Shown piece by piece: positions 43,827-59,443 of a stretch of DNA of 64,000 bases. Position 1 is the first letter of the stretch. The number at the start of each line of letters is the position of its first letter. A model generated the notes under the pieces. The model was not told the DNA's origin and did not search any database. It saw nothing but the letters and a program-made list of their open reading frames with translations. The stretch covers positions 744,001 through 808,000 of the forward strand of contig NZ_JANHOH010000001.1 of assembly GCF_024498135.1 (NCBI RefSeq). Reading direction: 5' to 3'. Position numbers and translations under genes: made by a program. Source of the DNA: Mucilaginibacter aquariorum (GTDB lineage: Bacteria; Bacteroidota; Bacteroidia; Sphingobacteriales; Sphingobacteriaceae).

Positions 43827-44936
43827 ATGAGAAATATATTCCTTACAGGAGCTGTAATGATGCTCTTATTATTATCCTGTAAAAAAGAACTTGGTACTTC
43901 GGTAGACCGCTTACAAGCTGATCAAAAAAATGCTATCCTGGCTACCTCCGACCCAACATTTACTACGGTAAGCACTTACCTTGGAGACAATAGGCGTGAA
44001 ACTTTAGATGGGCCTCTGAACATTGCAAGGACTTCTCAACCCAGTACAATTACTACCGGCCCGGATGGTTCTTTTTATTTTTCGGCGTTTCGAGGCTCCA
44101 GAATACGGAAGATCAGCCCGGATGGGATTGTAAGCACCGTTGCCGGCAGCGGTGTATTTGGTTATTGCGACGGCCCTGCTTTAAAAGCGCAATTCAGTTC
44201 TATGGGAGCGCTGGTAGTTACTAATGATGGCATTATATACATGTGCGACGGGGTGTATAACAAAATACGGAAAATCGAAAATGGAATGGTTACCACTTTT
44301 GCAGGCTCTACTGCAGGCTCTCCAGATGGAACCCGCGGAGACGTGGATGGCGTAGGTCAGCAGGCAAGGTTTTTTACGCCCACAGGTATGGCCCTGGCTC
44401 CCGATGGTTCATTGTATGTGGCAGATGCAAACAACCATAAGATTAAGAAAATTACGCCGGCGGGTGTTGTAACAACAATTGCCGGGAGTACGGAAGGATC
44501 TGCCGATGGCCCGGCTTTACTTGCCAAATTTGTTCATCCTTATGCCATAGTAGTTCTTGAGGATGGTACGATTGTAGTGGTTGATAGCAGCGATCACAAG
44601 ATCAGGAAAATAAGCCCTGCGGGGGTAGTAAGCACTTTTGCGGGGGGAGCAGAGGGATATGCTGATGGTTTGGGCGAAAGCGCCAAATTTAGCAGCCCAA
44701 GTGGCATAGCTTTAGCACCGAATGGCACGTTATATATATCTGATAATGGAAATCAAAGGATACGTAAGGTTTCACCATCGGGATTGGTAACCACTATTTC
44801 CGGTGGTGCGCTAAGTGGTTTTCAGGATGGCCCCATATTACAGGCAAGGTTTAGTTACCCTGAAGGACTGTTGTATTCAAATGACGCGATCTATATTTGT
44901 GATGTATATAACAACCGCATTAGAAAAATCGAATAA
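43827..44936 (+). CDS. NHL-repeat lipoprotein (six-bladed propeller)
   Basis: A 369-residue surface or periplasmic lipoprotein. The signal ends in LLLLSC with lipobox Cys18, followed by KKEL. The rest holds six repeats, each ending in a variant of 'KIRKISPAGVVSTFAG', as in NHL six-bladed beta-propellers ('PDGSLYVADANNHKIKKI', 'PNGTLYISDNGNQRIRKV'). Such propellers bind proteins or sugars; the ligand is unknown. It lies between the tRNA-Lys-like relic and the real tRNA-Lys gene. Bases 44937-45204 downstream show no gene. Confidence 0.9.
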   Translation: MRNIFLTGAVMMLLLLSCKKELGTSVDRLQADQKNAILATSDPTFTTVSTYLGDNRRETLDGPLNIARTSQPSTITTGPDGSFYFSAFRGSRIRKISPDGIVSTVAGSGVFGYCDGPALKAQFSSMGALVVTNDGIIYMCDGVYNKIRKIENGMVTTFAGSTAGSPDGTRGDVDGVGQQARFFTPTGMALAPDGSLYVADANNHKIKKITPAGVVTTIAGSTEGSADGPALLAKFVHPYAIVVLEDGTIVVVDSSDHKIRKISPAGVVSTFAGGAEGYADGLGESAKFSSPSGIALAPNGTLYISDNGNQRIRKVSPSGLVTTISGGALSGFQDGPILQARFSYPEGLLYSNDAIYICDVYNNRIRKIE

Positions 44937-45237: not shown

Positions 45238-45310
45238 GACTTGGTAGCTCAGCTGGTAGAGCAACTGACTCTTAATCAGTGGGTCGAGGGTTCGAACCCC
45301 TCCCAGGTCA
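45238..45310 (+). tRNA. tRNA-Lys, anticodon CTT
   Basis: A 73-base cloverleaf: acceptor GACTTGG/CCAGGTC (one G:U pair), D-arm GCTC-AGCTGGTA-GAGC, anticodon stem ACTGA/TCAGT with loop CTCTTAA (anticodon CTT), and T-arm GAGGG-TTCGAAC-CCCTC, discriminator A. CCA is not encoded. Its 3' half is overlapped, antisense, by the end of a serine recombinase gene, showing it is the integration site of the element to the right. Confidence 0.97.
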
Positions 45311-46823
45311 CCTTAGACCGCAAATCAGTTTTAACACCTGTTTTGCGGTCTTTTTTTGGTTCAAAAACAGCTTTTACGCTATCAAAAACGCAGATTGCTT
45401 CGTTTATTACGAGAGTTCGATGTTGCTCTCCGTCAAAAGTCAATTTTTGAGGGAACATCGAACTCACTATATGTCTTTTAGCCTCAGAACCAGCACTTTG
45501 ATATATTTGCGCTAACTTTGACAAGTTATTCAATGCCTTATCAATTAGAGGAACAATTCCTGCTTTTTTCGCAGATGAATCTACAAGTTTACCTTCTAAA
45601 ATAGTTATTTGTCTTTCGCTATCGCTTTTGATTTTTTTATAATCAGTGCCGTCAAGATCACCAGCAAGAAGCAAATCTCTTGCACGCGCGATCTTGTCCT
45701 GATATCCATTAAGTTGTTTTTTATAATTCGAAACCTCACTTCTACCTTGCCCCAACGAAAAATCATAAGCTTCTGCTATCAATGCTTTATAGAGATCGCA
45801 TACTGCAGGCTCAATTGAATATTTGTTAAGCATTTCTATAAATTTTTCGTTTACAAGCTTTGCATTAAACCTTGCACCACATTTAGAATTACAATGGTAA
45901 TAATGAAAGTATTTTGTCTTTCCCTTCGACGCGCTACCACTAAGCATTAGTCCGCATTTAGGACAGATTAGGAACCCTCGTAAAGGCAGTTCATCCATTG
46001 ACCTAATCTTAACTGAAGTTTTTCTTTTTCTACCGTCTAGCACATCCAAAACCTCGTAGAACAGGCTTTCTGAAATCAAAGCTTCATGTTGCCCATCAAC
46101 TAAATAAGCTTCTTCATCCTTGAATTGCGGAATAATAATTTTTCCGCAGTAAACGGGATTGCGAATTACTCTCCAGAAATTTTTTCTTCCCATCTCCAAA
46201 CCCTTTAATCTCGCTTCGCGCCAAATTTGATCTATAAAATAATTGCCTGTTGCAAGTTGCTCGAAAACCCATCTCATTATCGAGGCATTCGGTTCCTTAG
46301 GTACAATTGATTTCTTTCCTTGTGAATCTATCTTATTTTCGTAGCCAATGAGCGCATGTCCCATCCATCGTCCTTCTTTTTTCGCTCTTCGCATTCCGTA
46401 AAACGTATTAAGTGCCCTGCGGTCATTATCAACTTCCGGTTGTGCAAGATAAACTGCCAACATAAGTTTGCTTTCAGGGATAGACATATCAAGTGGTTGT
46501 TCAATTGCCTGAGGTTCAACAAACATATTTTTCAGGACATTGATCATTTGATAAGCATCACCAGTGTTCCGACTGAAACGATCCCACTTAGTGAAAAGCA
46601 CGTAATCTATTTGTCCCTTCTTTTTCTTAAGATCTAAGACAAACTTTTGCCATTCTGGCCTCTTAAATGTCTTAGCCGAATAGTCCTCAAAAATTATATT
46701 TCGAATTTCTATATCTCTCAGGTTGCAATAACGGGTCAGAACTTCTTCCTGGCTTCTTTGGGAGTATCCTCTATCAGCTTGTTCATCTGTGCTAACACGG
46801 ATATAAAGATCGGCAACTTTCAT
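45276..46823 (-). CDS. large serine recombinase (integrase) overlapping tRNA-Lys
   Basis: A 515-residue site-specific recombinase. The N-terminal resolvase domain has Ser11 in 'YIRVSTDEQADRGYS', then a recombinase domain and a zinc ribbon ('FLICPKCGLMLSGSA', 'HYYHCNSKCGARF') with a coiled-coil near residues 380-440. Large serine integrases join attP and attB without host factors other than their directionality factor. The last residues 'VTWEGFEPSTH' are encoded by the antisense of the tRNA 3' end, so the stop at 45276 is inside the tRNA. This marks the left end of the integrated element. It begins where a 57-aa gene ends (ATGA overlap). Confidence 0.95.
   Translation of the reverse strand: MKVADLYIRVSTDEQADRGYSQRSQEEVLTRYCNLRDIEIRNIIFEDYSAKTFKRPEWQKFVLDLKKKKGQIDYVLFTKWDRFSRNTGDAYQMINVLKNMFVEPQAIEQPLDMSIPESKLMLAVYLAQPEVDNDRRALNTFYGMRRAKKEGRWMGHALIGYENKIDSQGKKSIVPKEPNASIMRWVFEQLATGNYFIDQIWREARLKGLEMGRKNFWRVIRNPVYCGKIIIPQFKDEEAYLVDGQHEALISESLFYEVLDVLDGRKRKTSVKIRSMDELPLRGFLICPKCGLMLSGSASKGKTKYFHYYHCNSKCGARFNAKLVNEKFIEMLNKYSIEPAVCDLYKALIAEAYDFSLGQGRSEVSNYKKQLNGYQDKIARARDLLLAGDLDGTDYKKIKSDSERQITILEGKLVDSSAKKAGIVPLIDKALNNLSKLAQIYQSAGSEAKRHIVSSMFPQKLTFDGEQHRTLVINEAICVFDSVKAVFEPKKDRKTGVKTDLRSKVTWEGFEPSTH
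45315..45357 (+). terminator. intrinsic terminator of tRNA-Lys
   Basis: AGACCGCAAA (45315-45324) pairs with TTTGCGGTCT (45342-45351) and is followed by TTTTTT. It lies inside the antisense end of the recombinase gene. Confidence 0.85.
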
Positions 46824-47143: not shown

Positions 47144-47521
47144 TCTAATTCCCTATTCCATTGATATTGAGTGTGATATTCTTTAGATTAAACCTTGTTT
47201 CAACGAATGTTTCAATCTTATTTTTATAGCCTTTATCTTAATCTATTATACATATAAAAATTGATATTCTGAGTATTTGTCGAATTAAGGACTTATAGAC
47301 GCATGAATTAAATTGTATCACTAAAAGAATTTATCCAACATAAGTCATACGGTGATACAACTTATTGTGAGATTGTAACATATTGTGTCAAGTCCGATTC
47401 GATTAAAAAGCTAACTCCTGAATTAATTTGGCGAAATAGGGTAGTCAACATCTCCATAATATAAAGTATTTGATAAATGAATCAGATTCTGTTATATTAG
47501 TACAAACCTTATTGCTATTTG

Positions 47522-48478
47522 ATGAACTTTGTAACGATAGATTTTGAAACGGCCTCTTCAGACCGTGGTACCCCCTGTGAGATAGGTCTGACTTTTGTAG
47601 AAAATAATCAAATCGTCGTAACCAAATCTTGGTTGATCAAACCACACTGTTATCCAAATTTCGATTACTTCAATATGCTTATTCATGGAATTACGCCCCA
47701 AATGGTAGTTACCGAACCTGAATTCGATGAAATTTGGACGGAAATACTTCCGCTCATTGAGGGTAAATTTCTATTCGCCCACAATGCAGGTTTTGACTTT
47801 AGTGTATTACGAAAGACGCTGGACGCTTATGATTTGCCATATCCGAACGTTGCCTATGCTTGCAGTTATATTTTGGCAAAAAATATTTGGCCGGGTTTGT
47901 CGTCATACAATTTGAAATCGCTATGCAATGAACGTCAAATTACATTCGATCATCACCGGGCAGGTGCAGATGCCAAAGCAACAGCGGAGTTGATCCTGAT
48001 AGGTTTGGCAAATAAGGAAATCACTAACATTGACGACTTTAAAATCAAAGGTCGGATGTCCATAGGTAAATTATCCTCCACGGGTTATCAACCTTGTCAA
48101 ACGATCAGGACTTATACAAAGCCGGATTTTCGCGTTGTCGCTGCTGACACTTCCCATCATGACCGCGACTGTTTATTTTATGAGCGAAATGTTGTCTTTA
48201 CGGGTAAGCTTTCCTCAATGGAAAGGTCTGCTGCTCAAAAAATCGTCATTTCAATTGGCGGCCGGATAACTGAAGGCGTTACCCGTGACACCGATTACCT
48301 GGTAGTTGGGTTTCAGGATTATCGTTATGTTGGCGAAGATGGAATGAGCTCCAAGCAAAAGAAAGCCATTACAATGGTAAATTCCGGCGCTAACTTAGAA
48401 ATCATGTCCGAAGACGACTTTTTACGAAGTATCGACGGCAAATGGAACAGCATGAAAATCAAAGTCGAAGCTTATTAA
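47522..48478 (+). CDS. DnaQ-like 3'-5' exonuclease with C-terminal BRCT domain
   Basis: A 318-residue DEDDh exonuclease joined to a BRCT domain. Exo I is 'FVTIDFETAS' (Asp7, Glu9), Exo II is 'LFAHNAGFDFSVL', Exo III is 'HHRAGADAKATAELIL'. The BRCT domain (about 215-305) shows 'NVVFTGKLSSMERSAAQKIV' and 'GGRITEGVTRDTDYLVVG'. This resembles the DNA polymerase III epsilon-type exonucleases seen on mobile and defence islands. It may degrade DNA ends alongside SbcCD. Start at the ATG at 47522; a TTG lies 3 bp upstream. It reads towards sbcC, which is on the opposite strand. Confidence 0.9.
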   Translation: MNFVTIDFETASSDRGTPCEIGLTFVENNQIVVTKSWLIKPHCYPNFDYFNMLIHGITPQMVVTEPEFDEIWTEILPLIEGKFLFAHNAGFDFSVLRKTLDAYDLPYPNVAYACSYILAKNIWPGLSSYNLKSLCNERQITFDHHRAGADAKATAELILIGLANKEITNIDDFKIKGRMSIGKLSSTGYQPCQTIRTYTKPDFRVVAADTSHHDRDCLFYERNVVFTGKLSSMERSAAQKIVISIGGRITEGVTRDTDYLVVGFQDYRYVGEDGMSSKQKKAITMVNSGANLEIMSEDDFLRSIDGKWNSMKIKVEAY

Positions 48479-48506: not shown

Positions 48507-51500
48507 TTACAATTGTAAGATCTTATCCTGGTAACTTTTCGTACTTATCTTACTCCATCCGCCGGCTTGTTTCGTCACTTGGATTTGTGTCCCAATTCTT
48601 TCTTTCAATGCTTCTACGTGAGATATGATACCGACCGTTTTTCCTTTGGTTTGGAGGTTTTCCAACGCGGAGATTGCTTGTTCTAAGGTATCTGCATCCA
48701 ATGTGCCGAACCCCTCGTCAATGAACAAAGAATTAATTTGTACCTTTCTGCTGGCCAAATCTGAAAGCCCCAAAGCCAGTGCAAGACTAACTAAAAAGCT
48801 TTCACCACCGGAAAGCGTCGACATGGGGCGAACGGCATCTGCCTGGTAGCTGTCCACGATGAGCAACTCCAAATCGTTCGTTGTACTTTTCTGGATTTGA
48901 TACCGTTCGTTTAGCTTGCTCAAATGTATATTGGCCAAATCAGTTAAACGTGACAGCGTAAGTCCCTGCGCGAAGCGGCTGAACTTACGGCCATTATCAG
49001 ATCCGATCAGGGAAGAAAGCTTCGACCATCGTGATAATTCTGTTTTCTGAAGTGCCTCCTGCTTAACTAATCCAGCAAATTCTTCCTGGATTTTTTTGTC
49101 CGTGTTTAGCAGTTGCAGCAACATGCCTATCTCCTGGTTTATGCTATTAAGCGAACTTTCGAGCAACTCCAGTTGCATGACTAATTCGGTAGCAGGTTCG
49201 GCGGTCAATTGTTTTTCCTGCTCCGTTTTCAACTCGCTCTGAAGGATTATGATCTGTTGTTTCAAAGCGCCGATTTGTAAATCGAGTTGTTGCTTAAGAT
49301 CGCTAATTCTTTTTTCATTTTGATCATCCAGAAACCTATCTTCCAGCGCTTGCAATGAACTGATACCAAAAGGCGCCAATTTTAGCAATAGCTGGGTGGA
49401 TAAAGTGGCTAATTGTTCTTCTTGCTTTAGAACAGCGTTAGTCAGTTGGGTTATCGTGGTATTTGTAATCAAAAGTCGCTCGCTGGAATTTTTGACCAGT
49501 TCATCCACCTGCGTTAGCCTTTCCCTTGCGGATTGTAGTTTAGCCGCAAAGCGTTGACGCTCTTTAACCGGGTCTTTATCTCCGAACAAACCTGTACGGA
49601 CGGTTTTTAACTCGAGCAAATTCTGCTCTTCATGCCTTAAAGTAGATTCGTTATTTAATTGATTAGCTGAGTGGTTTTTGATGGCCTTGTGTATGTTAGC
49701 CAGATCGGTTTGTGCCTTAGTTTTGTCTATTTGCAGTTGCTGAAGAGCGAGGTTATTTTGCTGATAATGCAGCGAAAGGGTTTTCAGCTGGTCGTGAAGT
49801 TCGGTGAGCTGATCTTCGGTAAATTGGAGTTCAAAAGTCCCAAGCAAGTCAGTTAGGGCTTTGATCAGTTCTAATCTGCGCCCATTCAGATTTTCAATAC
49901 TGCTTTGTAAACGTTCTACGTGTTCATTTGCCGAACGTATTTTTTCATCGAAAGTTCCGGCTTTACCTTTTTCTATTAAAAGCAATTGCTGTATATTTTC
50001 TAATCTGTCCTTTAGGTTGACTATTTGACCGTTAATTTTTCGGCTATCTGTTAACTGCACCCGGAGCTTTGCCAATTGTTGTTGCCAACGTTGACGGTTA
50101 GCCAAAAGCTCTGTTAACTTTTCAATAGTTGCTGGCTCAGGTAAATCAGCTTTCTCTTCATCAAATTTTTCCGAAAGTGCCGACAAGGATTTAACATATT
50201 TTAATAAGTTCTCTTCTCTAGCCTGAACATTTAAATGGAGGGAATTTACAGCGATCGCGAGTTGATTAAACTCTGTAGTCAAGGAATTTACCAACGCTTC
50301 TTGGTCATTCCGTTTCTGTACCGAAAACGCTAATTTGTCAGATACACCGCCCTCGCTAAAAGGATGATGAATCGAGCCACATAGTGGGCACGGTTCTTCC
50401 GGCACGAGTTCTTTACGGTCATCTTCATAATTCTTAATGCGCTGTTCCAGTTCTACTAATTGGCGCAAATCAATTAACTGCCTTTCCGCCTTCGATTTTT
50501 GCGCAGATCGTTCGGCGAGCAGTGTTTGTTGCGTTACGAATGCTTCGCTTTGTTCTTTTAATTGCGCGGAAACTTCAAGCTGTTCATTCGACTGTTGCTG
50601 ATGGCTTGTTGCCAGCTGAATAAGCACGTTGAGGCGGTTAATAACTGCCGGCACCTCGTTGGCAGAGGTTTCGAGTTGATCGATTGTTTTATCGTCCAAT
50701 GTTTCGACCAACTCGCTTTTCAATCTTGCTATTTCGCCCGTGTATTGACTAACAGTAGATTCGAATGAATTTATATTTTGTTCGTTTTTATTTTTCTCAA
50801 GTAATTGCGCTGTGGCAGCATGCTCGAAATTCTTTAACTCCTGTTTAGCCTGGACGATTTGTTGATTAGTTTCAGCTAGGTCATGACGTGATCTTTCAAA
50901 AGCGACCAAGCTTGTTTGCAGTCCTTGGGCCGCAGCATTTGCGGCTAACCAGGTTTCAATCGTTTCTTGATCGAGCTTTTGCCTGGCAACCACTTTTTCA
51001 ATTCCTTGTTTCTCTCCGTCAAGTTCCGCCATTTTGCGCCTATTATCGGTGAGTATTGTTGCAGCTTTTAAAGCAATGTCCTGTTGATTTATTATTCGGG
51101 TATCTAACTCGCCTACTTTTACAAGCAATGGTTCGGCTTCAGTTGCCTCTTTCCCACATTGAATTACTTCCGCTGATACGCTAACCTGTTGATCTGCAGC
51201 TGCGAGCGAGGCCTCTTTATGGACTGGAAGTTGTAAATGCAAGTTTCCCAGGCCGATGTTGCTATCGTCTGCCTGTGCACGGATCGACTTAATTTCCACC
51301 AATTCCGGTTTAAATTTTATGGCCTGCTGGTGCGCTTGAAGTAAATTGAATTCAACTTCGTTCGCCCTGAATGACAACTCCAACCCATTAATACGATCTT
51401 GAATTTCTGATTCTTTTTGCCTCGCTTTTTCTATTTCTGTTAGCCACAGCAATAATTTATTAAATCGGTCCTGCTCTGATTTGACCTTAGTCAAATTACC

Positions 51501-52181
51501 ATTTAATTCTTCAAGTCGGAATTCGTGTGCCTGGCGGTCCTCGTCGGAGAGTAATTTAAACTCGCCCATTCTTAACTGGAGATGCTCCAGTTTTTCCTTT
51601 TCTTCCTTTTGCCGGAAGTATACGAAACGGGATATTTCTGCATAAATGGCCGTATCCGTAATTTTCTCTAAAAGCTCACTTCGCTCGTTGTCCTTGGCCA
51701 ACAAAAAGCTAGCGAAGTCTCCCTGTGACAGAATCACCGATCGCAAGAACTGGTCATAATCAAGGTCGCATAGATCTTTAATCGCTTGTTTTACGCCTGT
51801 TGTGGTATGACCGCCCAAGAATTCTCCGGTAGAGAGCACCGACAATTCCATTTTCTCTCCCTGGAAGGCGCCGTCATTTTTACCGCGGCTTCTTTTCATT
51901 GACCATTTCGCGCGATAGGCGATCTCTTTGACTTCAAACTCTACTTCCGCATAGCATTCAGCGGTATAGCGCGACATCATTTCTTTGAGATCTTTATCAT
52001 GGCGATGTACTCTGCCATATAATGCTGCGGTCATGGCATCTAAAATAGTTGTCTTTCCTGCGCCAGTTGGCCCGGTAATAGCAAAAAGACTGCTTTCCGT
52101 AAATGGTATCTCATTCAAGCGGATAGTATGAATGCCCTTTAAGGAATTTAAATTCAAAAAGGATATAGTCAATATTTTCAT
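48507..52181 (-). CDS. sbcC: SbcC-like (Rad50-type) nuclease ATPase subunit
   Basis: ATPase half of the SbcCD/Mre11-Rad50 DNA end-processing complex, 1224 residues. Walker A 'TGPTGAGKTTILDAM' is near residues 36-50, long coiled coils occupy about 190-1050, and the zinc hook CPLC is near residue 595 ('EEPCPLCGSIHHPF'). The signature 'LSGGESFLVSLALALGLS' and Walker B 'SLFIDEGFGTLDADTLE' close the head. It overlaps sbcD by 4 bp (ATGA), the usual tight coupling. Here it is the third gene of an operon headed by an RloC-like gene. It could be a chromosomal-type SbcC carried on a mobile element. Confidence 0.95.
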   Translation of the reverse strand: MKILTISFLNLNSLKGIHTIRLNEIPFTESSLFAITGPTGAGKTTILDAMTAALYGRVHRHDKDLKEMMSRYTAECYAEVEFEVKEIAYRAKWSMKRSRGKNDGAFQGEKMELSVLSTGEFLGGHTTTGVKQAIKDLCDLDYDQFLRSVILSQGDFASFLLAKDNERSELLEKITDTAIYAEISRFVYFRQKEEKEKLEHLQLRMGEFKLLSDEDRQAHEFRLEELNGNLTKVKSEQDRFNKLLLWLTEIEKARQKESEIQDRINGLELSFRANEVEFNLLQAHQQAIKFKPELVEIKSIRAQADDSNIGLGNLHLQLPVHKEASLAAADQQVSVSAEVIQCGKEATEAEPLLVKVGELDTRIINQQDIALKAATILTDNRRKMAELDGEKQGIEKVVARQKLDQETIETWLAANAAAQGLQTSLVAFERSRHDLAETNQQIVQAKQELKNFEHAATAQLLEKNKNEQNINSFESTVSQYTGEIARLKSELVETLDDKTIDQLETSANEVPAVINRLNVLIQLATSHQQQSNEQLEVSAQLKEQSEAFVTQQTLLAERSAQKSKAERQLIDLRQLVELEQRIKNYEDDRKELVPEEPCPLCGSIHHPFSEGGVSDKLAFSVQKRNDQEALVNSLTTEFNQLAIAVNSLHLNVQAREENLLKYVKSLSALSEKFDEEKADLPEPATIEKLTELLANRQRWQQQLAKLRVQLTDSRKINGQIVNLKDRLENIQQLLLIEKGKAGTFDEKIRSANEHVERLQSSIENLNGRRLELIKALTDLLGTFELQFTEDQLTELHDQLKTLSLHYQQNNLALQQLQIDKTKAQTDLANIHKAIKNHSANQLNNESTLRHEEQNLLELKTVRTGLFGDKDPVKERQRFAAKLQSARERLTQVDELVKNSSERLLITNTTITQLTNAVLKQEEQLATLSTQLLLKLAPFGISSLQALEDRFLDDQNEKRISDLKQQLDLQIGALKQQIIILQSELKTEQEKQLTAEPATELVMQLELLESSLNSINQEIGMLLQLLNTDKKIQEEFAGLVKQEALQKTELSRWSKLSSLIGSDNGRKFSRFAQGLTLSRLTDLANIHLSKLNERYQIQKSTTNDLELLIVDSYQADAVRPMSTLSGGESFLVSLALALGLSDLASRKVQINSLFIDEGFGTLDADTLEQAISALENLQTKGKTVGIISHVEALKERIGTQIQVTKQAGGWSKISTKSYQDKILQL

Positions 52182-53404
52182 CGAGCGTCCCTCCCTTCGG
52201 CCATTTTCTCCAACACCTCATTAAATGTCGCTATGAGATCTGTATAGTCGGCATCGCCAAATTCTGCTACGCACTTTTTTAGAAAAACATCTTTCGGATC
52301 CATATCGGTTAAGGCCATCGCCTGTTCAGCGAGTTGATCGAGGCCAACCGCCGGACGAAGCCGAAATTGCCTGATAAAGAAATGTTCAATATGTTCCTTT
52401 CCGACCTTTAACTTATTGATTTGATCCTCCAGATCATGGATAAAACTATCGGTTTCTACCAGCACATCTACCCAGGAAGGGTATTTTAACTGCTGGTCGG
52501 TCAAAAGCAGGATTTGGCTTTTGACACTATCGAGATTACCTTTTATTCGTAAAAGGCGGCGTTGGGCAGGTACCGGTAATTCTTCCAGCCTACTCAATTG
52601 ACCGCCGTTAAATTCAAGGATAATCACTTGCTTATTATCTTTATTTTCAGAAAAACTAAGGGGTATAGGTGAGCCTGAATAGCGGATATGCTCGAGTTTA
52701 TTTACGACCTGTGGCCGATGAAGGTGGCCGAGCGCGATGTAATTGAATTCAACGGGAAATTGGTTGCCATGGACCTGACCGAGGTTGCCGACATGGATAT
52801 CTTTTTCGCTTTCAGATGTGCTGGAGCCTGCTGCATACAAGTGCCCAGTGGCTATGACAGGTACATCATCAGCTTTGTATTGGCTGATGCTATTTAGGAA
52901 GCGGTGGTAATGTTCTTTTATGCCTTGTTTGATGCGGGTTTCACGTTCTTCGCCGGTTTCGCCCATAACTGATAGCCGAATATCACGATCTCGCAGGAAA
53001 GGAACAGCGCAAATTACAATTTCAACTTTGCCAGCTTTATCTTTGATTTCAATGATTTGGTCGGTAAATATTTCAGGAATTCCGCCCACCACATGGACAT
53101 TAAAGTATTTCAAAAGTTGCTTAGGTGCGTTTAGTGTGCTGATAGAATCATGGTTGCCACCTATAATTATTACTTCGCGGCAGCAAGTATTTTTTACGCT
53201 GCGTAAAAAACGGTAATACTGTTCAAGTGACATGTTCGAAGGATTACCGGTGTCGAAGATGTCGCCCGCAATTATCAATACATCAATGCATTCTGAGGTT
53301 AACCTTTCGATCAACCAGTCCAGGAAATCTTGATGTTCAAGCGTTCGTTCGTAATTTTGCAGCTTGATGCCTAAGTGCCAATCTGCTGTATGTAATACCT
53401 TCAT
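52178..53404 (-). CDS. sbcD: SbcD-like (Mre11-type) nuclease subunit
   Basis: Metallophosphoesterase nuclease of the SbcCD complex, 408 residues. The phosphoesterase motifs are in order: 'HTADWHLGIKLQ' (Asp8, His10), 'IIAGDIFDTGNPSN', 'IGGNHDSISTL', 'VIATGHLYAAGSS' and 'ALGHLHRPQV'. The C-terminal helical region binds SbcC. It starts 12 bp after the RloC-like gene and overlaps sbcC, so all three are in one transcript. SbcCD cleaves hairpins and protein-blocked DNA ends. Confidence 0.96.
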   Translation of the reverse strand: MKVLHTADWHLGIKLQNYERTLEHQDFLDWLIERLTSECIDVLIIAGDIFDTGNPSNMSLEQYYRFLRSVKNTCCREVIIIGGNHDSISTLNAPKQLLKYFNVHVVGGIPEIFTDQIIEIKDKAGKVEIVICAVPFLRDRDIRLSVMGETGEERETRIKQGIKEHYHRFLNSISQYKADDVPVIATGHLYAAGSSTSESEKDIHVGNLGQVHGNQFPVEFNYIALGHLHRPQVVNKLEHIRYSGSPIPLSFSENKDNKQVIILEFNGGQLSRLEELPVPAQRRLLRIKGNLDSVKSQILLLTDQQLKYPSWVDVLVETDSFIHDLEDQINKLKVGKEHIEHFFIRQFRLRPAVGLDQLAEQAMALTDMDPKDVFLKKCVAEFGDADYTDLIATFNEVLEKMAEGRDAR

Positions 53405-53416
53405 AATTCTACTAAA

Positions 53417-55711
53417 TTAAGCCACGAGGTTGGATTTGCACACTTCTTCCATTTCGTCGTAATGGGCTTTATCCAATTTTTCGACTATTTCCAAAACATG
53501 GTGGATGATATTATCACCCTCCCCTAAAAGATTATCAATCGGAGTTTCATGAAACTCTATTTGTTGATTATGTGAATACTTATTTATAAACCGGTAAACT
53601 TTTTCCCTAACCTCCGCATCGGAACAGCCGGCCTCAAGGAGTTGATTAAAATCATTCCGTCCTTTTGGGAATTTAAATGATAAGAATGCCTCTAATAATT
53701 TTCTTGATAAATTAGCGATAAGGAAAGCTTTTTCAAGATCTAGGCTTATCAAAGACTTTAATGCGTGAAGCTTATAAAAAATGTAATGATATTCAGAATT
53801 AAATTCTAATAAAGTACTGTTCGCATTATTTATTGAAGATGTCCGATTTTCCTCCGTAGTGCAATCAATGGAGTAAAAATGTGATTTGATCTTGTCTTTT
53901 TTATTTTTTTTAATTAACCAATCCCTTATTAACTTAAAATACTGAAAATTATGGGTAAACACAAAAAGTTGCAACGCCTGTTCGCATTCCTTTTTGAGGT
54001 ATGAATAAGAATGGAAAAGATGATTACTATCAAAGCTCGAAATTGGGTCATCAACTAGAATGATGCTATTCTCAATCTTATTACCGTTTTCCTTCAGTTT
54101 CGAAATAAAGTAAATAAATGCAATAGCTGTTTTCTCACCTTCACTTAAATTAGTTGCCGGAGACGCCTTACCGCCCCGCTTTAATTTGTAGCCTTTCAGA
54201 GCAGAATCGAATTCTATTGAAATATCTTTGCGACCTATAAATTTAAACAGACTTTCATTAAAACTATGCGCACCTACCGCTTCGTTTATTAAAATTGCTT
54301 CAATTGCTTTAATATTAGCATCGAGTTGGACAAGCGCTTCAGCCTGCACGACTAATTCAACCCTTTGATCTTCAATAAGTTTTTCAGTATCAGCATACTT
54401 TTCCGTAAGCAAGATATCACTCACAAAATGTAGCTCAAGTTTTTGCTGTCCCTTTTTAACTTCCTCATCAAACTGCTGGTTTTTGAGATTGTGCTTGTCA
54501 ATAATTGACAACAAACCCTTTAGTGACTTATTAAAGTTCTCGAAAGTCGCATTAACATTGGAAAATTTATGAGCAATAATTCCAAAGGGCTTTTCTAGTT
54601 TAAGTTCAATTTTCTCAACAGCTTCGACTATTAATTTCCCGCATTCCCTCTGATCGAGTTCAAACTGTGCTTTTGCAAGAATATATTCAGGATGGTACTC
54701 ATCATATAATTCAATAGTTTCAGGACACTTAACATGTACCATTATTGCTAAATGTTCATAATTAACCTTAGCTTTTGCTAAATCGTCTATCAATTTAGTA
54801 TATTCTACACTAAAATGTTCATTTAGTTTTGAAATAGTTCCAACAGGCAGTTTTTGATTGCAAAATTCACAGTTAGCACTTTTATATTCATTATGGATTG
54901 ATAGTCCTTCCTGTACCCACAAATTGATGTCCGGATTTGCTATTAACCGCGAGATTTGATTAGAAAAGATACTTTTGGCGACAAGGTTCTCTATTGAATC
55001 AAACTCTGCTAAAACATTATTTAGTGACAACTCGATAATATTCTCTTTATAAATATCTTCTTTTTGTGTTGGTTTAATAGCGTTTTTCAAATCTTTTACG
55101 ATGTCCGGTAAAAGCACTGAATCTTTGCTGATCGCGGCCTTATTGTCTTTTATAAACTTGGTTAATTTTGTGCGGTCATAATTAAGGTAATAGTTATTGT
55201 TGGTTTCAATTAATTCAAACGATTTTTTAATACTACTTGCCCATTTGCTTAAAGATTTCTTTAGATCGTCTTCTGCCTTGTTATTGATACCATCGGCCTT
55301 TTTATGTGCGTCCTTTTTCGTTTCATTCTCACTAATCAGCTTTTTATAATTGTCCATATCCTCCTTTTTTTCTTCGGAAAGGATGATTATACTGTTAGCT
55401 TTAGATTGTTCGAAATTTACATTTCTTTCAATAAAATCCTTATTGAAAACATGGATATTAACGGCGTTCTCTCCAATATTTTTTTGAGTAACATCTACAT
55501 GGTCTTTTATGGTAACAAGGAATTCGCAGGTATCGAAGTCTTTATGAACTGCTTTGTCGTTTACAGAGTAAAAAAGCTTAGCTAGCGTACTTTTACCGCT
55601 ACCGTTCCAACCATAGAAAAGATTATTTTTATTAAATGGTAACAAGCCGGGAGTGGGCTTGTAGTTCTGAAAAATTCCAAATTTGGTTAATTTGGCAATA
55701 CTTTGAATCAT
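53417..55711 (-). CDS. RloC-like AAA_13 ATPase with zinc hook and candidate anticodon nuclease site
   Basis: A 764-residue SMC-like ATPase. Walker A 'GWNGSGKST' is at 34-42, coiled coil from about 110, a CxxC zinc-hook-like CEFC at 281-284, signature LSEGE at 522-526, Walker B 'IILVDDP' at 550-556, then H587. The C-terminus has R670-x3-E674 and H714. This is the Arg-Glu-His order of PrrC and RloC anticodon nucleases (PrrC: R320, E324, H356). RloC is a DNA-damage-responsive tRNA anticodon nuclease with a Rad50-like hook, about this size. The gene is AT-rich and starts the rloC-sbcD-sbcC operon. It could instead be another AAA_13 defence ATPase; the catalytic assignment is inferred. Confidence 0.75.
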   Translation of the reverse strand: MIQSIAKLTKFGIFQNYKPTPGLLPFNKNNLFYGWNGSGKSTLAKLFYSVNDKAVHKDFDTCEFLVTIKDHVDVTQKNIGENAVNIHVFNKDFIERNVNFEQSKANSIIILSEEKKEDMDNYKKLISENETKKDAHKKADGINNKAEDDLKKSLSKWASSIKKSFELIETNNNYYLNYDRTKLTKFIKDNKAAISKDSVLLPDIVKDLKNAIKPTQKEDIYKENIIELSLNNVLAEFDSIENLVAKSIFSNQISRLIANPDINLWVQEGLSIHNEYKSANCEFCNQKLPVGTISKLNEHFSVEYTKLIDDLAKAKVNYEHLAIMVHVKCPETIELYDEYHPEYILAKAQFELDQRECGKLIVEAVEKIELKLEKPFGIIAHKFSNVNATFENFNKSLKGLLSIIDKHNLKNQQFDEEVKKGQQKLELHFVSDILLTEKYADTEKLIEDQRVELVVQAEALVQLDANIKAIEAILINEAVGAHSFNESLFKFIGRKDISIEFDSALKGYKLKRGGKASPATNLSEGEKTAIAFIYFISKLKENGNKIENSIILVDDPISSFDSNHLFHSYSYLKKECEQALQLFVFTHNFQYFKLIRDWLIKKNKKDKIKSHFYSIDCTTEENRTSSINNANSTLLEFNSEYHYIFYKLHALKSLISLDLEKAFLIANLSRKLLEAFLSFKFPKGRNDFNQLLEAGCSDAEVREKVYRFINKYSHNQQIEFHETPIDNLLGEGDNIIHHVLEIVEKLDKAHYDEMEEVCKSNLVA

Positions 55712-55966: not shown

Positions 55967-56692
55967 ATGAGTGTTATCGAAGAAGAAGTAAAAGTCCGTA
56001 AAGTTGTTGTAGACCCAAAAATCTCCCTTACGATGATGGCGCAATTGAGCGTTGCCTCTGACAGGGTTAAACTTAGCATTATCAAGAAAAGTAAATATCC
56101 GTCGGAATTTGTGCCGGGTTATCATGAAATAGCAAGGAAGAGCATGTGTGACGCATTCGCGTCAAATATCAGTGGTGACTACCATTATTATTTCGAAGAT
56201 TTCAAACACAGGGCTAAGGCATTAGCTAAGGAAGCTGTTCTTCATCCTAAGAAGCGGGTAGCATATAAGAATCCATTTTATTCAGCCCAAGCCTTGGATA
56301 GCATGATTGTGATGGAGGGTATAGTGACACCGTTACTGCAGGATTATACCATGCAAAGCAATACGTCTAAAAGCAAAAAATCTATAGAAATTAATAACGT
56401 TTGTATCAGTTCAAGAGCGGATCTTATTTTAGAAGATCAGTATGGTGTAAACCAGGTTGGCTTTTTAAAATTTAATTTTTCTAAAAGCAAATATCCGGCG
56501 GACGAAGCTGCGGTTAAACTCCACGTTTTAAAGCGATATTATGATGAAAGGAAACTCGACTTAAATCCCTACGACTGCATTTTGGTGGATGTGGCCGGGC
56601 GTCGTGTTTATAGATTAAGCGAGGTGGCGAACATGAAGGATCGGCTGCATAAAGATACGATAATGATCCGGGATACCTGGGAATTGATTTAG
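55967..56692 (+). CDS. uncharacterised 241-aa protein of the mobile region
   Basis: Not recognised. A basic soluble protein; the C-terminal half reads 'CISSRADLILEDQYGVNQVG' and 'FLKFNFSKSKYPADEAAVKL', then 'YDCILVDVAGRRVYRL'. This strand order with an acidic residue after Ala-Asp and a lysine two residues later loosely recalls PD-(D/E)xK nucleases, but the core is weak. It is divergent from the RloC-like gene with 255 bp between starts, so both may share control. A box TATCTTTA (near 55916) resembles the -7 element for this direction. Function unknown. Confidence 0.65.
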   Translation: MSVIEEEVKVRKVVVDPKISLTMMAQLSVASDRVKLSIIKKSKYPSEFVPGYHEIARKSMCDAFASNISGDYHYYFEDFKHRAKALAKEAVLHPKKRVAYKNPFYSAQALDSMIVMEGIVTPLLQDYTMQSNTSKSKKSIEINNVCISSRADLILEDQYGVNQVGFLKFNFSKSKYPADEAAVKLHVLKRYYDERKLDLNPYDCILVDVAGRRVYRLSEVANMKDRLHKDTIMIRDTWELI

Positions 56693-58147: not shown

Positions 58148-59443
58148 TCATAACGAGTTTATAATTTTATGAGTATTTGCAATCGTCTCAGAAATTATGC
58201 CTTCCCAATAATTAACTCCAAAGTCCAAAGCAAGGTTGTTATATGTTCTCCTTAGTTCTGTAATTAACGAAGCTTTATCTCGGCCATCTGCGCGGCCATC
58301 TTTTAGAATACTAATTTGCGACGTTATTAAAGCGTTTGCTTTTTCGTTATATTTAGTAAGCAAATTAAACTGCTTAAAATGTCCTTTGATAATTTTAAAC
58401 TCTCCGGCAGTTATTGCGGCTGGTTTTTTTAAGAAGAAACTAAATCTCGGTGTTGATATTCCCCGATGATGTATGATTTTTGCATATAAGAAACGATATT
58501 GAATGAAGGTATCATTATAAAAATGTAAAATTCGTCTATAACCATTTTTTCTCCAATAGTCACCCTTTATTCGATTGCAGTTTTCACAACATGGTATAAG
58601 GTTTCTAAACATTGAGTTTGATGAATTTTCTAAGATGTTGAGTGCTACGATTTTGAGTTGCCGCACACGTTCTGTACTCAGGCCAAGTATGGGACCTATT
58701 TCTGCAGGAACCATCGGATAAAGGCCATTAAGCCCGTAACTCAGTTCAATGAGTTTACGCTCTCGATCAGGAAGTTTGTGTAGGAGATTTCTTAATTCAA
58801 GTATCCTGTCATCATTTATAAAACAAGCGTCTGCCCGATCGTCTGGAGAATAAATTTTATCTAGTAAGGAAAGTTCTTCCCCATCGTGAACTATATCGAG
58901 GCTGGACGTCCATTTGGCGTCCTGTAAGGCCCTGCTGATCTTGCCGGCATCCATTTGCAGGTATTCAGCAACCTGCTCTGTTGAAGGCGGACTTTGATGC
59001 TGTTGCTCTATGGCATTTACTGCTTTATTGATTTTTGTGATTTCATGAATATTATTTACCGGCAGGCGGATCATCCGCGCGTTTTCGGTGATAGCAGCAA
59101 TGATACTTTGCCTGATCCACCACACCGCAAAAGATATAAATTTAAAGCCCCGGGTTTCATCAAAACGGTAAGCTGCCTTAATTAGCCCCAGGTTTCCTTC
59201 GCTGATCAGATCCGATAAGGCAAGACCCTGGAACTGATATTTTTTAGCGATGCTCACCACAAAACGAAGATTACTTGATGTCAGCTTTTCGAGGGCCTGG
59301 CGATCGCCGCTCCTTATTCTTTTAGCCAAATCAATTTCTTCTTCGGCAGTACACATCCGCGCTTTACTAATATCCGCGAAGTATATCTCTACGACAGCGC
59401 TGGAATGGGTAATAGATGGAGTTATATGGAAATTCCTCATCAT
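58148..59443 (-). CDS. sigma-70 factor fused to the C-terminal half of an HNH endonuclease
   Basis: A 431-residue fusion. Residues 1-275 are a full primary-type sigma factor: region 2 with 'LRFVVSIAKKYQFQGLALSD' and 'FKFISFAVWWIRQSI', region 3, and region 4.2 'EIGPILGLSTERVRQLKIVA'. From about residue 280 the sequence changes to 'NLIPCCENCNRIKGDYWR' with CxxCN-K, the second half of an HNH nuclease, and continues to residue 431. The N-terminal HNH part (the first CxxC and the DH) is missing, so nuclease activity is unlikely unless completed in trans. The sigma start overlaps the dehydrogenase stop by 4 bp. The junction near 58618 may be a rearrangement scar. Confidence 0.8.
   Translation of the reverse strand: MMRNFHITPSITHSSAVVEIYFADISKARMCTAEEEIDLAKRIRSGDRQALEKLTSSNLRFVVSIAKKYQFQGLALSDLISEGNLGLIKAAYRFDETRGFKFISFAVWWIRQSIIAAITENARMIRLPVNNIHEITKINKAVNAIEQQHQSPPSTEQVAEYLQMDAGKISRALQDAKWTSSLDIVHDGEELSLLDKIYSPDDRADACFINDDRILELRNLLHKLPDRERKLIELSYGLNGLYPMVPAEIGPILGLSTERVRQLKIVALNILENSSNSMFRNLIPCCENCNRIKGDYWRKNGYRRILHFYNDTFIQYRFLYAKIIHHRGISTPRFSFFLKKPAAITAGEFKIIKGHFKQFNLLTKYNEKANALITSQISILKDGRADGRDKASLITELRRTYNNLALDFGVNYWEGIISETIANTHKIINSL

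Follow-up and report, generated by a model that had tools for sequence, protein, structure and literature searches.

The closest described relatives of the locus studied here are the RloC proteins of Geobacillus kaustophilus and Acinetobacter baylyi, in which an ABC ATPase split by a coiled coil with a CX2C hook is joined to a HEPN-type C-terminal domain (PMC2610378, PMC3874168). The definition of RloC given by Davidov and Kaufmann, in the part of PMC2610378 available to us, comprises an R-X3-E-X36-52-H triad, often with Ser before the His, a CX2C hook in the coiled-coil insert and a length of 658–897 residues. According to the accessible part of PMC3874168, its ATPase turns RloC on in the presence of linear DNA, and in cells RloC is activated by an agent that induces DNA breaks. 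Known RloCs are rarely linked to restriction-modification (R-M) genes (8/72); these portions of the two papers discuss possible tethers of RloC to DNA and its control, and they mention no SbcCD partner gene. Here we analysed a 64,000-nucleotide stretch of the Mucilaginibacter aquariorum genome (hereafter the window), in which an RloC-type gene of the same build stands, different from those known RloCs, in an apparent operon with sbcD and sbcC. Such an operon supplies a Mre11-Rad50-type pair and is, in one lineage, a direct and testable candidate for the tether or control of RloC. The linkage recurs in separate lineages; that the operon forms a two-armed accessory unit of phage defence, in which SbcCD gates an end-triggered RloC, is a reading that we regard as evenly poised between right and wrong.

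The three genes lie on the minus strand in the order rloC, sbcD, sbcC, with a 12-bp gap between the first two and a 4-bp overlap between the last two; both junctions agree with the initial annotation of this DNA, made from the letters alone:

53417–55711, minus strand: RloC-type anticodon-nuclease candidate, 764 residues, with a Rad50-like ABC ATPase, a coiled coil, a CEFC zinc hook at residues 281–284 and a C-terminal HEPN-like domain with R670, E674 and S713-H714
52178–53404, minus strand: sbcD, 408 residues, Mre11-type phosphoesterase with motifs D8xH10, GD48, GNH85D and GH227xH229 intact
48507–52181, minus strand: sbcC-type gene, 1224 residues, Rad50-type ATPase with Walker A at 37, hook CPLC at 598, signature at 1123 and Walker B at 1152

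The 764-residue protein matches Pfam AAA_13 (E 1.6e-133) and PADLOC candidate PDC-S06 (E 7.7e-167), and its ATPase motifs are Walker A at 34, the signature LSEGE at 522 and Walker B (IILVDDP) at 550. The AAA_13 ATPase, hook and triad had all been read correctly in the initial annotation. The triad is spaced R670-x3-E674-x39-H714, with S713 preceding the His, which falls within the published range; the length is also inside the RloC size range. Hook and triad are kept in 22 of 22 aligned full-length proteins (the window protein, one record from assembled-genome contigs and 20 proteins of the family sample described below) and in 16 of 16 in a second alignment (the window protein, the same contig record and 14 viral-contig proteins), and are therefore not a chance occurrence.

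The AlphaFold model of the protein (mean pLDDT 81.7, pTM 0.53) has a Rad50-like head, and long helices flank the hook on both sides; the pLDDT of the hook region (residues 251–300) is only 53–62. The top VIA-align row for the head is Rad50 chain 5da9_B, bound to the Rad50-binding domain of Mre11, with Z 17.7 and an rmsd of 5.0 over 299 residues; SMC heads score as high. Modelled alone, the C-terminal 135 residues gave a pLDDT of 83.9 and a pTM of 0.79. The top VIA-align rows for this domain are 8xeh HEPN-MNT (Z 8.8), 2hsb HEPN (Z 8.7), Csm6' (Z 8.2) and 1wol HEPN (Z 7.6), with rmsd 2.9–3.6 over 106–123 residues, and the first clearly unrelated row has a Z of 6.6; Foldseek alone found no match with E < 0.001. 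The HEPN assignment, drawn from a predicted model, is the weakest of the RloC features, as a Z of 8–9 is modest for a helical bundle. As each feature of the definition (triad, hook and length) is present, the 764-residue protein is an RloC by anatomy, and every testable sequence and fold feature bears out the RloC-like identity first proposed; cleavage of tRNA is predicted. The protein probably stops phage growth by cutting tRNA.

Like PrrC-EcoprrI, in which a HEPN tRNase is encoded with a DNA-processing enzyme that restrains it (accessible parts of PMC3710099 and PMC3874168), the window protein is encoded with DNA-processing enzymes. Different from PrrC, which has no zinc-hook insert and is partnered with a type I R-M enzyme, it carries the hook and its partner genes are sbcD and sbcC, for which restraint is a proposal of ours.

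SbcD contains the Pfam domains Metallophos and SbcD_C; it exceeds the NCBIfam TIGR00619 cut-off (207.4 against 77.65 bits) and stays under the stricter equivalog NF008206 (379.9 against 450). SbcC contains AAA_23 and SbcC_Walker_B, the ATPase head motifs and a CxxC hook, and its gene overlaps sbcD. The sbcC models are its best families by far, yet it lies under the naming cut-offs of TIGR00618 (339.5 against 478.5 bits) and NF007600 (492.8 against 750), so that 'SbcC-type' is the exact wording. With the PADLOC models (PADLOC-DB 2.0.0, of 2023), SbcD and SbcC give partial, low-scoring matches only. SbcC matches LmuB partially (E 1.2e-19) and none of nine scanned window proteins matches LmuA; the locus is thus not a Lamassu or ABC-3C system. 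Promoter and terminator scans gave results at chance level.

To find out how often RloC and SbcCD are linked, the family sample (301 genomes) was searched with PF13166 and TIGR00619. All 22 strong AAA_13 loci (E <= 1e-57, two contig pieces of genome G220 taken as one) were opened; in L082–L085, SbcCD was sought with BLAST alone. In 5 of the 22, a Mre11/Rad50-type pair lies next to RloC. Four of these (the window, G144, G253 and G220) have sbcD-sbcC; the fifth, from the same genus (G272), has a divergent phosphoesterase and a 911-residue SMC/Rad50-like protein, in the same order as in the window. Beyond the family, a plasmid of the betaproteobacterium Chitinibacter bivalviorum (L098) carries sbcD, sbcC and a broken RloC gene in this order, the sbcD being a 3' part behind an IS21 element. 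In the five linked loci and L098 these genes all point the same way, and neighbours either overlap by 4 bp or are spaced by 1 to 154 bp. The number of chance co-localisations expected within 10 kb is 0.034 against four observed with SbcD, by a Poisson estimate that uses a hand count of 108 SbcD places (the tally implies ~107) and takes placement to be random, an assumption violated by clustering in islands. In the RloC tree the linked members do not group together, and their SbcDs fall in separate SbcD lineages, so the linkage probably arose several times. As for other sources, an assembled-genome contig scan found one relative, a viral-contig scan with the SbcC class found no match, and phage records held distant RloC relatives only. 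The divergent phosphoesterase and Rad50-like pair (~425 and 911–1153 residues) was seen at L164, L165 and L047; it accompanies RloC in G272, and no defence-model match lies beside it in G325 and G330.

The source genome has one SbcC match and one SbcD over the cut-off. Among the 36 other genomes of the genus, sbcC was matched in three, as a full copy of 30% identity (G020), a remnant (G029) and a weak match (G022), and among the matches listed only G000, G020 and G249 exceed the TIGR00619 cut-off in this genus. The sbcDC pair is accessory in the genus. A housekeeping SbcDC copy beside which RloC was inserted by chance is not favoured, given these three of 36 genomes and the three listed SbcDs over the cut-off; yet the window's class of SbcDC is repair-like elsewhere, and this idea is kept within the alternatives weighed below.

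The SbcDs of the family form three classes, a housekeeping class (SbcC of ~1011–1027 residues), class 3 to which the window belongs (8 loci, 1219–1224 residues) and class 2 (14 loci, 1242–1244 residues). Of the ~107 SbcD places, 34 were opened, comprising 14 of class 2, 8 of the window's class, 11 housekeeping loci and the outlier L086 outside the classes; the completeness of class 2 rests on match length in the TIGR00619 list. Co-directional anti-phage genes stand beside sbcDC in 10 of the 14 class 2 loci, compared to a contiguous anti-phage gene in 0 of the 11 opened housekeeping loci (Fisher p 5e-4), for 3 of which the neighbours were run through Pfam. The ten class 2 loci carry:

L042: RloC, behind a 172-residue gene
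L061: RloC
L052: RloC and a GajA-type gene
L056 and L063: Gabija, upstream
L064: OLD, behind a 148-residue gene
L065: two OLD-type genes, then a GajB-like gene
L062 and L067: ABC-3C (ABC-3C/Lamassu)
L060: DUF4297-HerA

The defence models were built from the linked loci themselves, so they can detect only kinds already known and are bound to match the loci on which they were trained; the key linked genes were also covered by independent Pfam and PADLOC scans. The GajB model also matched, in housekeeping locus L080, a UvrD-like helicase that lies 1.3 kb away on the opposite strand and, in class 3 locus L077, a 1129-residue gene (RecB-like by place); neither was counted as linked. Outside the family, no gene within four of sbcDC matched the defence models used in 20 loci of related SbcC, which argues that the defence-partner pattern is not general for SbcC.

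Closely related pairs carry different partners. SbcD is 95% and SbcC 87% identical between L060 and L064, yet one has DUF4297-HerA and the other OLD; their shared DNA (87.6%) consists of sbcDC and ~35 bp upstream, and its end is no more than 20 bp from the sbcC stop codon. For L052 and L065 the shared DNA (82.7%) is sbcDC and ~360 bp upstream, stopping at the sbcC stop, besides short matches elsewhere. The same exchange is seen on plasmids, of which 19 sbcDC loci were opened, taken from the upper part of two match lists and not at random; the unannotated records L187 and L188 were scanned with our self-built models only. Contiguous defence-type genes are found at:

L096 (Rhizobium): SIR2-HerA, upstream of sbcDC
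L191 (Aliarcobacter): sbcDC, then SIR2-HerA
L141: Qat
L192 and L193: PDC-S06 ATPases, each behind a gene of 97–103 codons
L194: NACHT protein
L140: LmuB-like gene
L098: the broken RloC

Left uncounted among the other 11 are L095, with AbiE-type toxin-antitoxin genes just upstream, and L139, with a divergent OLD-like gene. In five Arcobacteraceae plasmids, SbcD is 94–96% and SbcC 90–93% identical, and four kinds of cassette follow (Qat, SIR2-HerA, PDC-S06 twice and NACHT). In the four pairs compared at the DNA level, homology is lost ~25 bp or less from the sbcC stop and is regained some 3–5 kb later; the cassettes in between are unlike one another, apart from a 47%-identical ATPase common to L192 and L193. 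The L192 and L193 proteins, which match PADLOC PDC-S06, were rejected as RloC, the R-x3-E of the triad being missing while CxxC and the His column are kept. Small proteins (97–172 residues, no Pfam match) lie between sbcC and the effector in L042 (11306–11824), L064 (5600–6046), L192 (10036–10329) and L193 (9865–10176), that of L192 being annotated as WYL domain-containing; they are possible adaptors or inhibitors.

Taken together, these loci suggest a wider pattern, which we put forward tentatively and consider somewhat likelier to fail than to hold. SbcD-SbcC would have been recruited many times (in Pseudomonadota, Campylobacterota and Bacteroidota) to serve a modular defence superfamily as its interchangeable core for DNA ends, with the pair retained or relocated and the effector cassette exchanged (RloC, Gabija/OLD, ABC-3C/Lamassu, HerA-DUF4297, SIR2-HerA, Qat or NACHT). 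The core would gate end-responsive effectors, and the window operon would be one such unit, assembled independently from a repair-class SbcDC. If this is true, a housekeeping repair enzyme has been turned into a plug-in part for unrelated anti-phage systems; this could explain how several end-sensing systems spare the host, and 'accessory SbcCD' would then serve as a marker in the search for new effectors.

For the window operon, we propose that the three genes are co-expressed and that their products are physically or functionally coupled. SbcD-SbcC would bind and trim DNA ends, whether linear, hairpin or protein-blocked. RloC would be the lethal or dormancy arm: its Rad50-like ATPase would meet persisting linear ends and switch on the HEPN ribonuclease, which would cut the tRNA anticodon loop and stop translation. 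By removing or hiding the ends that trigger RloC, SbcCD would set the threshold at which the effector fires, so that the cell tolerates everyday breaks; if a phage produced ends in great number, shielded them or inhibited SbcCD, RloC would fire and the phage would be held back. The role of SbcCD for RloC would resemble that of the type I restriction enzyme for PrrC, and related SbcCD pairs may serve elsewhere as the exchangeable partner of other effectors, several of them end-triggered. We infer that SbcCD restrains rather than activates RloC. The gating proposal was drawn since DNA ends are the common thread of several partners, and no such thread is in evidence for the Qat and HerA systems. 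The coupling in the initial annotation, in which SbcCD degrades DNA and RloC halts translation when that fails, is not supported as it was worded; it is one of several that fit.

Other described systems share parts of this design. Lamassu couples a Rad50-like LmuB sensor to variable effectors, as the available part of PMC10586767 describes, and Lamassu, ABC-3C and DdmABC are thus alike in having a Rad50-like component with exchangeable effectors. Different from Lamassu, the Rad50-like SbcC of the window comes with the Mre11-type nuclease SbcD, and ABC-3C genes are themselves the swapped partner in L062 and L067. Gabija acts on linear DNA unattended by RecBCD, and Gabija and OLD nucleases are triggered by ends that a host end-processing enzyme has left unattended (accessible part of PMC12407980, a preprint, in which SbcCD goes unmentioned); they are found here in operons with the sister SbcDC class, and their effectors are DNA nucleases, not a tRNase. 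As in the nuclease-protease pairs described in part of PMC12799240, where one gene pair is recruited by many unrelated defence systems, one pair is recruited here, namely SbcD-SbcC.

In archaea, herA-nurA with mre11-rad50 forms a repair operon. Its likeness to our loci is HerA with a partner beside Mre11-Rad50, as in SIR2-HerA-sbcDC (L096) and sbcDC-SIR2-HerA (L191); unlike that repair operon, the bacterial loci are defence-like owing to their SIR2 or DUF4297 partner. In our searches of open-licence literature we found no description of SbcCD in an operon with RloC, in line with the initial annotation, or of SbcCD as a shared partner of defence systems; PMC13152194, the one paper among those listed that contains both words, names RloC and SbcCD separately in the part available. 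The parts are known; within those searches, the combination and the cassette-exchange pattern are new.

Several observations weigh against the proposal that RloC and SbcCD work as one unit. RloC was not paired with SbcCD in any of 36 further loci of the phylum sample (from 35 of its 395 genomes, other than that of the window; several with broken genes or near contig ends, flanks short in several, and the weaker pieces G527 C33 and G427 C11 left out), nor in any of 19 viral-contig loci, again with short flanks in several. Two conjugative plasmids carry RloC and have no sbcCD in up to 9 kb of flank. RloC-SbcCD linkage is therefore a repeated minority trait, and the idea that the two always travel together is ruled out by the phylum and viral loci. 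The closest sampled RloCs (G036 and G307, 55% identical) lack an adjoining SbcCD, so RloC can do without it. RloC also has its own internal switch, and that of A. baylyi is neither silenced nor activated via its R-M protein, according to the part of PMC3874168 at hand. In 1-kb bins, the GC content of rloC is 32–36% compared to 42–44% for sbcDC, which suggests that they came together recently. The seven other sampled members of the window's SbcDC class have no contiguous gene matching the defence models used; in L072, recD and recC follow sbcC, and L077 has genes of the same sizes. On plasmids, only 8 of the 19 sbcDC records opened have a contiguous defence-type gene. The conserved gene order, including on mobile elements, that the initial annotation proposed to look for was thus found in part: RloC adjoins a Mre11/Rad50-type pair in the five family loci and on a plasmid of a betaproteobacterium, but RloC-SbcD-SbcC in exactly this order, with an SbcD that passes the cut-off, occurs in the window only (G272 has it with the divergent pair, the others SbcD-SbcC-RloC) and is absent from the viral loci. 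Neither an order of genes linked nowhere else nor loss of R/E/H in homologues, the two sequence-level outcomes named there as refuting, came true. Its single defence unit of RloC and SbcCD likewise recurs in several lineages, but most RloCs examined lack SbcCD, and related SbcCDs adjoin many other defence genes.

The main rival, though we think it unlikely, is that RloC and SbcCD are neighbours only: sbcDC would be an accessory pair for repair or plasmid maintenance that lies at a hotspot of insertion or recombination, where defence genes including RloC land beside it without joint function. Defence genes cluster in islands anyway. The Arcobacteraceae plasmids L191–L194 agree with this, as a fixed frame (parA, parB, RelA/SpoT, sbcDC ... 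DUF2779 or nearby) surrounds a variable slot, and so do the class 3 pairs that stand alone or with repair genes and the GC difference just given. Yet effectors lie on either side of sbcDC (upstream in the window, G020, G249 and Rhizobium L096, downstream elsewhere); they are on the same strand in the ten class 2 loci and the window, with gaps mostly below 160 bp (233 bp in L064); no housekeeping locus opened has a contiguous effector; and the DNA shared by L060/L064 and by L052/L065 is sbcDC with a short upstream stretch that ends at or within 20 bp of the sbcC stop, all of which speaks against mere neighbourhood.

It is improbable, in our view, that SbcCD is instead a sensor that activates the effector, either by processing blocked or hairpin phage ends into a form seen by the Rad50-like head of RloC or by passing ends on through zinc-hook contact, as a Lamassu-like sensor with a swappable effector. 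Lamassu's LmuB with its variable effectors shows the same modular pattern in the accessible part of PMC10586767, and among the solved structures closest to the RloC head are Rad50 chains from Mre11-Rad50 complexes (Z 17.7). In a very improbable reading the operon aids repair: RloC would slow translation when DNA is damaged and SbcCD would repair the breaks, phage defence not being the main role. This reading draws on the response of RloC to DNA breaks (part of PMC3874168), on SbcCD being a known repair enzyme whose window class stands with recD and recC in L072 and on the window SbcD being the sole one over the cut-off in its genome. Against it stand the absence of sbcC from most of the genus sample, the AT-rich rloC, the recombinase and tRNA gene close by, and the dedicated anti-phage systems found at sister SbcDC loci.

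Beyond sbcC, the neighbourhood of the operon contains:

47519–48478, plus strand: DnaQ-type exonuclease with a BRCT domain (PADLOC candidate PDC-S48), convergent with sbcC, 28 bp apart
45276–46823, minus strand: large serine recombinase, ~1.7 kb beyond sbcC, its last codons running antisense through tRNA-Lys
45238–45312, plus strand: tRNA-Lys (CTT), overlapped by the recombinase 3' end

The recombinase likely moves the island, and the tRNA-Lys gene is the probable integration site. No second attachment repeat of at least 14 bp was found in the window, and an empty-site comparison through the flanking gene at 43827–44936 was unusable, this gene being a multi-copy repeat protein. A recombinase 38% identical to that of the window adjoins the ABC-3C/sbcDC locus L062 (11356–12822). 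The remnant in G029 consists of the sbcC 3' end and the convergent DnaQ-BRCT exonuclease gene, 83.8% identical over 1050 columns; since the two travel together there, the exonuclease gene possibly belongs to the same mobile unit. A DnaQ-BRCT exonuclease convergent with sbcC also occurs at L057 (9252–10283).

Some minor features were seen around these loci. The class 3 loci L072 and L077 form an end-processing super-operon, in L077 also with the 1129-residue gene. RelA/SpoT-domain genes recur beside the Arcobacteraceae plasmid sbcDC (L191, L192, L193 and L194) and next to RloC in G307 (L041). Adjoining rloC in the window, a gene at 55967–56692 (plus strand) encodes a 241-residue protein without family, with broken-frame relatives at L056 (Gabija-sbcDC) and L041 (the RloC locus of G307). 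Three scanned genes between rloC and 58148 match no family, and the gene that follows them (58148–59443, minus strand) encodes an RpoS/RpoD-like sigma factor (residues 12–277, also MzaA-like) fused in frame to the C-terminal half of PADLOC candidate PDC-M01B (E 1.7e-29).

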